Source: Paracoccaceae bacterium (GTDB taxonomy: Bacteria; Pseudomonadota; Alphaproteobacteria; Rhodobacterales; Rhodobacteraceae). From it: a stretch of DNA of 42,495 nucleotides. The stretch covers positions 1-42,495 of the forward strand of contig JABSSD010000204.1 in NCBI GenBank assembly GCA_013214575.1, written 5' to 3'. Positions 35,296 to 37,499 of the stretch are shown piece by piece. The position numbers and the translations under genes are program-made. Position 1 is the stretch's first letter. Each line of letters starts with the position of its first letter. The notes below the pieces were generated by a model, which saw only the letters and a list, made by a program, of their open reading frames with translations, had not been told where the DNA came from and did no database searches.

Positions 35296-35769
35296 TTACT
35301 CAGCTGCAGCTGTTTTTGCGACCAAGGTCAGAGCGCCGCCAGCTTTTTCTACTGCTTCAACGGCTGCTTTTGAGGCGCCGGTAACAGAGATTGTGACTTT
35401 GCCAGTGATTTCGCCTTTGGCCAGAACGCGGATACCGTCCAGCTTGCGACGCACAACACCCGATTCGACCAGGCTGGCTTCGGTGATCGACGCAGCGTCG
35501 AGTTTGCCAAGGTCGATGAATTTCTGGATCAGGCCCAGGTTGATGACAGCAAATGCCTTGCGGTTCGGCTTGTTAAAGCCACGCTTTGGCAGACGTTGGT
35601 ACAAAGGCATCTGACCGCCTTCGAAACCTTTGATGGCAACACCCGAACGGGCTTTTTGACCTTTGATACCACGGCCACCCATTTTACCGGTGCCGGAACC
35701 CGGACCACGGCCAATGCGCTTGCGTTTTTTGGTAGCGCCAGGATTGTCGCTCAGTTCATGAAGTTTCAT
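35296..35769 (-). CDS. rplO: 50S ribosomal protein L15
   Basis: 157 residues: [42 protein letters not shown] and the basic-glycine-rich core. ATG at 35769 has AAGGAG upstream; the longer open frame is leader sequence. It is normally right after rpmD, but here it is 1.5 kb away with its own promoter. Confidence 0.97.
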
Positions 35770-35867
35770 ATCGCTTCTCCTTAGCCGGATGTGACCCACG
35801 AAGCGTATTCGGGCCAACCACGGCAAATATTGCTTTTGATTCGATGACCCGGATGGCCATTGGCTGC

Positions 35868-35896
35868 CTATAGACCTGTTGGGGTGGGGGATCAAG
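35868..35896 (-). promoter_or_regulatory. Candidate rplO promoter (CTTGAT-N17-CTATAG)
   Basis: Minus-strand CTTGAT at 35891-35896, a C-rich 17-base spacer, then CTATAG at 35868-35873, about 100 bases before rplO. The same pattern with the same spacing and a C-rich spacer is seen before rpmC, which supports both. Confidence 0.6.
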
Positions 35897-36059: not shown

Positions 36060-36131
36060 CAAAACGCCCCCGCAATGCGGAGGCGTTGGCGATCATTCAA
36101 ACCCCAGGGAGGAGGAAGGGGATGAATGAAT
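36060..36131 (-). ncRNA. CCUCCUCCC-loop small RNA (CcsR/'cuckoo'-like) in DUF1127 3' region
   Basis: On the minus strand, roughly 100 bases after the DUF1127 stop, TCATTCA pairs with TGAATGA and CCCC with GGGG, presenting loop TTCCTCCTCCCT (motif CCTCCTCCC, plus-strand 36107-36115). A second hairpin, aacgcctccgc-att-gcgggggcgtt (36063-36087), followed by TTTT is an intrinsic terminator. The two-hairpin layout downstream of a DUF1127 gene matches the CcsR RNAs next to ccaF1 in Rhodobacter sphaeroides (established there). The ends here are predicted, not measured. Confidence 0.78.
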
Positions 36132-36234
36132 TCCTGAGCGTTTACCAGTTCACATTGGATCGGGTTTCACGGCCTCTCGCCTTCGGCTCGAACGCGAACA
36201 CCAATGATCCAGCCCAGCAAAAGCTGGAAACGCT

Positions 36235-36450
36235 TTAGCGGCCGTATACGTGGATACGGGCAATATCGGCGATGTCGCAGCGGCGCACACCGATGTCGGC
36301 CAACTCGCGATTCTCCAGCCGGTCCAGCTCGGCAAATGTGCGCTTGTATTCGGCGTTCAGCGCCCAGGCCTGTTTGCTGTCTTCAAAGAAACCGGACAGG
36401 CGGGCGAACAGGTTGAAACCGGTGGAGGCTGTGGTGATGACATGTGCCAT
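36235..36450 (-). CDS. DUF1127 family small protein (CcaF1-like)
   Basis: 71 residues. The C-terminal part, ELDRLENRELADIGVRRCDI then ADIARIHVYG, is the DUF1127 motif, rich in Arg/Asp and helical. A related protein in R. sphaeroides (CcaF1) is an RNA-binding protein involved in maturing the sRNAs encoded next to it (established knowledge for that case; applied here by analogy). The N-terminal ~30 residues are a less conserved aromatic stretch. Confidence 0.9.
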   Translation of the reverse strand: MAHVITTASTGFNLFARLSGFFEDSKQAWALNAEYKRTFAELDRLENRELADIGVRRCDIADIARIHVYGR

Positions 36451-36522
36451 GATAAAATCCTATGTTTTTTCCAGCTGAGACCCATTCCCCAGCTCTTTGT
36501 TTTGTTCTTGTTTGGTGAGGTC

Positions 36523-36550
36523 TAGATATAGGATTTGATCGCGCTAACAA
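36523..36550 (-). promoter_or_regulatory. Candidate DUF1127 promoter
   Basis: Minus strand TTGTTA (36545-36550), 16 bases, TATCTA. The -10 area CCTATATCT resembles the CYTATNT type reported for RpoH-dependent promoters of Rhodobacter, and a stress-sigma promoter would fit the DUF1127/CcsR genes. Spacing from TTG to the CCTAT box is only 15, so this is tentative. Confidence 0.4.
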
Positions 36551-36716
36551 CGGACAGTTCGGTCAATCCGCTATGCGCTGGCCGCATGGGGAATGTCATA
36601 ATTCGTTGTTAATTGCGTGGGGCAACCAAGGCGCGCCACATGGGCAGGCCCCCTCGTGCGTCCAAGCCTGCCAGTTAGCCAGTGCAGGCGCACAGGCTGG
36701 AACAGGCTGGAACAGG

Positions 36717-37136
36717 CTACAGCAGAGCCCAGATCGCCAGTACGCAGAGTATCATCAGCATCGCCCAGCCAGCCACGTAGGTAAAGGTCCGCAAACCCTG
36801 AGAGGCCTGACCCAGGTTTCGGGCATAGACAAGGACATAGGCCAAACGGGTGGCCAGAAAGACAGCCATCAGCAGATTGACCCAGGTCGCCGACACCCCG
36901 GCAAGGATACAGGCAAACAGGGCGATCGCTGCGGCCGGCATGATTTCGATGCCGTTTTGATGCGACCTGTTGAGCCGGTACAGTTTGTTGTCATAGTCTG
37001 CCTTCGGGGTGCTGCCCGGGGCCGCTCCGGCCTTGGCCTTGGCTGCACCAACCATCGCCGACTGCAACAGCACGGTCAGTACAAAGACCAGCAGTGAAAT
37101 GATGGCGACAGAATAGTCTGCAACGAGTTCTGGCAT
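36717..37136 (-). CDS. MAPEG family membrane protein
   Basis: 139 residues with four membrane helices and the family motif YRLNRSHQNGIEIMPAAA. MAPEG proteins are trimeric membrane enzymes or related proteins of eicosanoid/glutathione metabolism in other organisms; bacterial members mostly have unknown roles. It sits in the gap between rpmD and rplO, minus strand, preceded by the rpmD terminator. Confidence 0.85.
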   Translation of the reverse strand: MPELVADYSVAIISLLVFVLTVLLQSAMVGAAKAKAGAAPGSTPKADYDNKLYRLNRSHQNGIEIMPAAAIALFACILAGVSATWVNLLMAVFLATRLAYVLVYARNLGQASQGLRTFTYVAGWAMLMILCVLAIWALL

Positions 37137-37260
37137 GTGATTTCCCCCAAAAATGAATAGGTAATGAGTTAATCAAATATGCGGAAAGTCTCGGTCGTCA
37201 AATATTGCGCAGCATCAGTAGCGAGAAATGCTGAGACATTTCGGGGCCCTCGATACAGAA

Positions 37261-37287
37261 AACGCCCCCGGCGGCACCGGAGGCGTT
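37261..37287 (-). terminator. Intrinsic terminator after rpmD
   Basis: Minus strand aacgcctccgg-tgccg-ccgggggcgtt (one mismatched base), followed by TTTTCTG, about 25 bases after rpmD. It closes the rpmC-rpmD ribosomal unit. Confidence 0.85.
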
Positions 37288-37310: not shown

Positions 37311-37499
37311 TTAGCCTTTTTCTTCGATGATCACGACCATGTGTGAAATCTTGTTCACCATGCCGCGGATGGAAGGAGTGTCTTCCAGTTCGCGTGTCTT
37401 GTGCATCTTGTTCAGACCCAGACCGACCAGCGTAGCACGCTGTTTGGCGGGGCGGCGGATCGGCGAACCGATCTGCTTTACGACGATAGTTTTAGCCAT
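37311..37499 (-). CDS. rpmD: 50S ribosomal protein L30
   Basis: 62 residues; [20 protein letters not shown] then [20 protein letters not shown] and [11 protein letters not shown] fit L30 over its full length. Last gene before the split in the spc cluster. Confidence 0.97.

Follow-up and report, generated by a model that had tools for sequence, protein, structure and literature searches.

A DUF1127 and CcsR-like RNA unit in the rpmD-rplO gap probably answers to a redox regulator rather than to the surrounding ribosomal genes

Results

Organisation of the rpmD-rplO gap

The window, the whole 42,495-nucleotide stretch of Paracoccaceae DNA analysed here, carries on its minus strand the gene order rpsE-rpmD-MAPEG-DUF1127-rplO-secY-adk. 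Pfam matches and gene order both confirm the preliminary description in placing a DUF1127 gene in the rpmD-rplO gap; the gap also holds a MAPEG-family gene. In the direction of transcription the locus comprises the following features.

37311..37499, minus strand: rpmD (L30; PF00327), final gene of the upstream ribosomal block
37256..37287, minus strand: intrinsic terminator of rpmD, AACGCC...GGCGTTTTC, read from the sequence, with part of it caught by the terminator scan
36717..37136, minus strand: MAPEG-family gene (PF01124), inside the gap
36571..36588, minus strand: LysR-type box CATGC-N7-GCATAG, upstream of the DUF1127 gene
36527..36550, minus strand: promoter core, TTG (36548-36550), N17, TATA (36527-36530)
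36473..36494, minus strand: 5′ UTR hairpin AGCTGGGG-AATGGG-TCTCAGCT, covarying across 36 sequences
36235..36450, minus strand: gene for a DUF1127 protein of 71 aa (PF06568)
36137..36234, minus strand: structured 98-nt insert, from the stop codon to the hairpin
36093..36129, minus strand: CcsR-like hairpin, its loop holding CCTCCTCCC at 36107-36115
about 36060..36088, minus strand: intrinsic terminator of the unit, hairpin and T-run, seen in the fold
35867..35895, minus strand: promoter-like site of rplO, TTGATC-N17-TATAGG
35296..35769, minus strand: rplO (L15; PF00828), heading the downstream ribosomal block

The DUF1127 reading frame scores 43 bits against PF06568 (Pfam cut-off 23.3) and has no match in NCBIfam; its product is a probable RNA-binding protein. 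The nearest named relative is Parasedimentitalea denitrificans (L032), with 86% identity in the DUF1127 protein, and locus L178, from the same genus as the window, is identical to it across the DUF1127 locus. Our genus sample consists of the window's genome and seven further genomes of the genus of P. denitrificans. The 98-nt insert, bounded by AGCGTTT/AAACGCT, was seen by eye in three of these eight genomes and is absent from four, the remaining one having a shorter hairpin. A genome search for the insert as a multi-copy element returned a single match, the insert itself.

A loop hairpin in the 3′ UTR and its conservation

Both hairpins that had been assigned to the 3′ region of the gene are there, the CCTCCTCCC loop hairpin followed by a terminator, and they are sited in the 3′ UTR, outside the gene. 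The motif falls entirely inside the 12-nt loop of hairpin 36093-36129, and the 93-nt stretch here folds with −39.5 kcal/mol (z −2.98), a value equalled by none of 200 shuffles. A generic terminator scan did not list the unit's terminator, which is visible in the fold. Because CCTCCTCCC occurs 23 times in the genome against 18 times for its reversed control, the motif by itself carries little weight; the value of the evidence rests on loop, stem and position together.

Conservation of loop and stem had been expected in relatives that keep the DUF1127 gene. It holds throughout the genus, the loop motif being unpaired and enclosed in 8/8 genomes (0 to 11 of 500 flank shuffles did as well) while the stem sequences differ yet still pair, and it does not extend to most of the named relatives. 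A protein search gave 33 loci. One of them, L064 from Pseudocitrobacter, matched over 23 residues at E 1e-5 and was set aside as unrelated. CTCCTCC follows the DUF1127 gene within 250 nt in only nine of the 32 left (L032, L033, L034, L036, L037, L041, L043, L051 and L054; L032 and L033 are counted here and among the eight genus genomes alike). The best fold of L043 does not enclose the motif, and L036 gives weak enclosure, equalled by 32 of 500 shuffles. The other 23 relatives, mostly Ruegeria, lack CTCCTCC within 250 nt downstream and have, by eye, a terminator-like hairpin; TTTT occurs within 120 nt in 31/32. Where DUF1127 follows rpmD in a wider family sample, two loci have CTCCTCC no more than 100 nt beyond the stop, L077 and L142, the latter with two hairpin sites of which one alone is well enclosed. 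Locus L118 has three DUF1127 genes in the gap, one with CTCCTCC at 195 nt. Given these counts in the relatives and the family sample, the DUF1127 gene and its location are steadier than the RNA part.

Likeness to CcsR RNAs

At the gathering threshold, Rfam recognises nothing but a tRNA in the whole window. The covariance search with the CcsR family that the preliminary description had called for gave 14.4 bits for CcsR1 (RF02791), where 65.3 are needed, and ar14 (RF02344) reached 22.1 bits against a gathering score of 58.8. As both scores are far below threshold, we grade the unit as CcsR-like and not as a proven family member; the proposed match to CcsR and CcaF1 stands for the DUF1127 gene, the CUCCUCCC loop hairpin and the terminator, and fails for formal Rfam membership. 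The genome's own ccaF1-like locus, on C14, scores 36.9 bits for CcsR1, also below 65.3. It has four hairpins with C-rich loops, of which three display CUCCUCC and the fourth CCCCUCCC. In the paralogues on C93, C176 and C200, the C-rich loop sits in the terminator hairpin itself.

The unit shares with CcsR RNAs the display of CCUCCUCCC in a hairpin loop. It also resembles the CIN1 locus of R. sphaeroides, defined in the accessible part of PMC10253847 by CcsR RNAs directly 3′ of a short DUF1127 gene, in having its RNA directly downstream of such a gene, and differs in having one hairpin in place of four tandem homologous RNAs. A literature search found no paper pairing DUF1127 with the word CCUCCUCCC. 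The unit is a further DUF1127 gene with a CcsR-like RNA, a known kind of element.

A promoter signature that marks DUF1127 genes

Among 55 upstream regions of DUF1127 genes in the rpmD-rplO gap, ATKC-N7-GCAT is found in 37 (shuffled mean 0.86, maximum 4) and TTG-N17/18-CYTATNT in 25 (shuffled mean 0.135). The window's genus belongs to the 30 regions without the latter and has TTG-N17-TATATCT or similar. Judged against the RpoH consensus, the promoter spacing in Ruegeria is RpoH-like, and the promoter core of the window is so less clearly.

The genome has nine DUF1127 genes, six of which are followed by CTCCTCC after the stop: that of the window and those on C14 (where CTCCTCC occurs three times), C43, C93, C176 and C200. 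All six have ATGC-N7-GCA-N23/24-TTG-N17/18-YNTA upstream. The genes on C44, C139 and C148 have neither ATGC-N7-GCA in the 400 nt upstream nor CTCCTCC in the 300 nt downstream. Across the 5.59-Mb genome, the full pattern has 6 matches, exactly the six CTCCTCC-bearing DUF1127 genes, and its reversed control has 0. Since the pattern was built from these six promoters, and C93, C176 and C200 are near-identical paralogues, tests in other genomes weigh more. The seven other genus genomes hold 27 matches (3 in the reversed control); a DUF1127 gene lies downstream in 21 of the 26 examined, and 19 of those 21 have CTCCTCC no more than 300 nt past its stop. The gap unit itself fits the full pattern in 5/8 genus genomes, the exceptions being G120, G121 and G124. 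In 40 genomes of other genera of the family there are 52 matches against 14 in the reversed control, and 22 of the 29 examined precede a DUF1127 gene. CTCCTCC lies within 350 nt at only eight of these 22 genes, seven of them having it in six or seven copies, and for that reason we take the signature to mark the DUF1127 gene and not the hairpin: the CcsR-like RNA is a frequent but optional companion. A DUF1127 gene is lacking at 5/26 matches in the genus and at 7/29 in the family, and one of the latter, L275, is the site after an LsrB-like gene.

Matches at L230, L246 and L250, in three genus genomes, share near-identical letters of the type ATGCCTT-N4-GCATC and have no DUF1127 gene; a fourth near-identical match exists. 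The loose box alone, with two mismatches, was too unspecific for a genome scan (468+510 matches; reversed control 313+324).

Between promoter and gene, the leader hairpin covaries. In the 36 sequences, all 8 pairs change on both sides, a score reached by 1 of 500 shuffles, and 37 cells have two-sided changes, reached by 0 of 500; the signal is lost when the partners are slid. The two outer pairs are unformed in 23 and 18 sequences. The hairpin, with an apex of GGGGAAU type, stands directly before the ribosome-binding site and is possibly a site of autoregulation.

The box beside an LsrB-like gene

A perfect copy of the box at C215:3913 lies directly after a LysR-type regulator gene (L189:2433-3344, minus strand) and before an RNA that passes the Rfam threshold for SorX (55.9 against 46.6) and stays below that for SorY (59.6 against 111). 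Among solved LysR proteins, the L189 product is closest to LsrB of A. tumefaciens, with 253 bits to PDB 9HH1 and 98.6 to the next solved LysR entry; 9HH1 is identified as that protein in the accessible part of PMC11975290. Of the best 25 of 56 NCBIfam families for this protein, none exceeded its cut-off. At a cut of 1e-60, an LsrB-like protein is found in 32/41 genomes, at most once in each.

An exact ATGC-N7-GCAT occurs within 150 nt after the gene at 16 of 30 lsrB-like loci, against a Markov mean of 0.29, and is missing from that interval at 14. Five of the six loci from outside the family have it. A SorX/SorY-type CCTCCCTGTTGG follows the gene in 19/24 Rhodobacteraceae loci. A motif taken to mark TrxB was found within 1.5 kb upstream at none of these 24 loci, so that adjacency to trxB is not seen in the family. 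A TrxB-like motif is upstream at 6/6 loci outside the family, in three of them as a CATC-type motif only. An upstream trxB is the arrangement given for vtlR in the part of PMC7486931 open to us.

Brucella VtlR is described, in the available text of PMC12595884, as a positive regulator of three DUF1127 genes and of AbcR2, with the motif CAATGCAGCCATGCA; its half-sites are those of the unit's box, its spacer 6 where ours is 7. LsrB is called seemingly unique to Rhizobiales in what could be consulted of PMC11975290; if orthology holds, the Rhodobacteraceae sequences would speak against this.

A near-perfect box, TATGC-N7-GCATAC, was also noticed at about L190:2593-2611 (C195:8093-8110), some 120 bp upstream of a reading frame that is elongation factor P-like by sequence.

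The gap and its ribosomal neighbours

The comparison of gene order that had been suggested bears out the position of the DUF1127 gene: among the 32 named relatives, rpmD lies upstream in all 31 whose sequence reaches it, rplO lies downstream in 27, and 26 show both flanks. The place in the gap is therefore old. Across the family, DUF1127 follows rpmD in 15/110 sampled genera, with both flanks in view in 88. Over 89 regions (these 88 and the window), the gap ranges from 46 to 5144 bp and exceeds 500 bp in 56; insertions at this site are common across the family. The element TTG-N20-TATAGG before rplO is kept in both relatives with rplO in view, L178 (TTGATC) and L180 (TTGCCC), despite differing distances to the DUF1127 stop (465, 1435 and 1420 nt).

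Duplex energies of the loop with the start regions of 17 window genes were −11.3 for rpsN, −11.1 for rpsH, −9.4 for rplO and −9.0 for rpmD, placing rplO 7th and rpmD 9th. This comparison, weak and made within the window, gave no preference for rplO or rpmD. Among the matches listed in our literature search, none pairs DUF1127 with rplO or rpmD.

Discussion

We somewhat favour the view that the unit is a free-standing DUF1127/CcsR-like sRNA transcription unit in an LsrB/VtlR-type regulon, lodged at a permissive boundary between ribosomal units. Because its promoter is common to sister units elsewhere in the genome, control probably lies with a redox regulator and not with the flanking ribosomal genes. 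Here a LysR activator of the LsrB/VtlR kind, responding to a predicted stress signal, would bind ATGC-N7-GCAT, which lies some 50 bp ahead of the −10 element, and switch on transcription, the sigma factor probably being RpoH-like or the housekeeping one. The mRNA would encode the small DUF1127 protein, and its 3′ end could be cut off to leave a two-hairpin sRNA, as by RNase E for such RNAs in R. sphaeroides (PMC10253847 and PMC8307010, in the parts available). Displaying CCUCCUCCC in its first loop, the sRNA may base-pair with target mRNAs at their purine-rich Shine-Dalgarno stretches. Five more DUF1127/CUCCUCC units of the genome would be driven by the same regulator, along with a SorX-type sRNA next to the regulator gene.

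Three other readings need weighing. The hairpin and terminator might be the plain 3′ end of the DUF1127 mRNA, an aid to protection or termination with no separate regulatory RNA. This agrees with the 23 named relatives, Ruegeria orthologues among them, that keep the gene without a nearby CTCCTCC, and with the C-rich loops lodged in the terminator hairpin itself on C93, C176 and C200. Yet the loop motif stays fixed in all eight genus genomes (L043 being the exception among the named relatives) while the stems vary and still pair, and a mere stabiliser would have no need for a fixed CUCCUCC loop; we regard this reading as rather improbable. It is doubtful, too, though less so, that the box belongs to a different LysR-type regulator or that RpoH alone controls the promoter, as for ccaF1-CcsR in R. 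sphaeroides. The operon there has an RpoHI/RpoHII promoter according to a figure legend in PMC10253847, and the recurrence of TTG-N17/18-CYTATNT before gap DUF1127 genes fits such control, but the palindromic box is additionally kept at a fixed distance and, in several families, turns up again immediately downstream of the LsrB-like gene.

The preliminary description had raised a link to ribosomal protein expression, whether by co-transcription from the spc cluster or by anti-Shine-Dalgarno action on neighbouring ribosomal mRNAs. The long-standing place of DUF1127 after rpmD speaks for such a tie, as does the ability of the loop to pair with ribosomal start regions. The link is not borne out in either form. 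In cis it is unlikely because the rpmD terminator, the unit's own promoter signature and terminator, and the promoter-like site of rplO set the unit apart on both sides; the openness of the gap to many other inserts and the small share of genera with DUF1127 in it also led us to discard it. In trans, other start regions of the window pair better with the loop than those of rplO and rpmD. Taken whole, this explanation is very improbable, and an address within a ribosomal cluster need not imply a tie to ribosome synthesis.

Beyond the unit, whose free-standing nature we favour, our opinion is evenly divided on a family-wide extension: that an LsrB/VtlR-type redox regulator across the Rhodobacteraceae uses one promoter grammar for DUF1127 proteins and for anti-Shine-Dalgarno sRNAs, both CcsR-like and SorX-like. 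The rpmD-rplO unit would then be an old, position-stable member in which the sRNA part comes and goes while promoter and 5′ UTR hairpin stay.

The stress sRNAs CcsR and SorX/SorY have been investigated in R. sphaeroides, where RpoH controls them. Work on VtlR/LsrB in rhizobia and Brucella has treated it as an sRNA regulator, which in Brucella also acts on DUF1127 genes. The novelty here lies in the promoter signature and in its proposed tie to a regulator of LsrB/VtlR type; the signature joins the two fields and allows a direct test, in a tractable laboratory bacterium, of what regulates a whole class of small proteins and sRNAs. In the literature searched, which left out most subscription papers, we found no account of either in Rhodobacteraceae.

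Comparison with known systems

The closest counterpart of the unit is ccaF1-CcsR1-4 of R. sphaeroides, with which it shares a 71-aa DUF1127 gene, a CCUCCUCCC loop hairpin in the 3′ region and a terminator at the end. Unlike that operon, it has one hairpin and not four, sits between rpmD and rplO, and scores far below the Rfam threshold in a genome whose ccaF1-like locus lies apart, on C14. The alphaproteobacterial sRNA ar14 (RF02344) gives a weak model match, under its gathering score, across the same stretch. A regulated leader is shared with a DUF1127 gene of S. meliloti, which the available portion of PMC12218461 reports to be under uORF attenuation; where the S. meliloti leader has a uORF, that of the window carries a covarying hairpin. 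With the VtlR/LsrB regulons of Brucella and Agrobacterium the common elements are a LysR regulator, sRNA and DUF1127 targets (the latter in Brucella; both predicted here) and ATGC...GCA half-sites. Differences from these regulons are the spacer of 7 and not 6, the SorX/SorY-like RNA after the regulator gene in Rhodobacteraceae, the lack there of a TrxB motif upstream of it, and the presence of CTCCTCC downstream of six out of six box-bearing DUF1127 genes in the genome described here.
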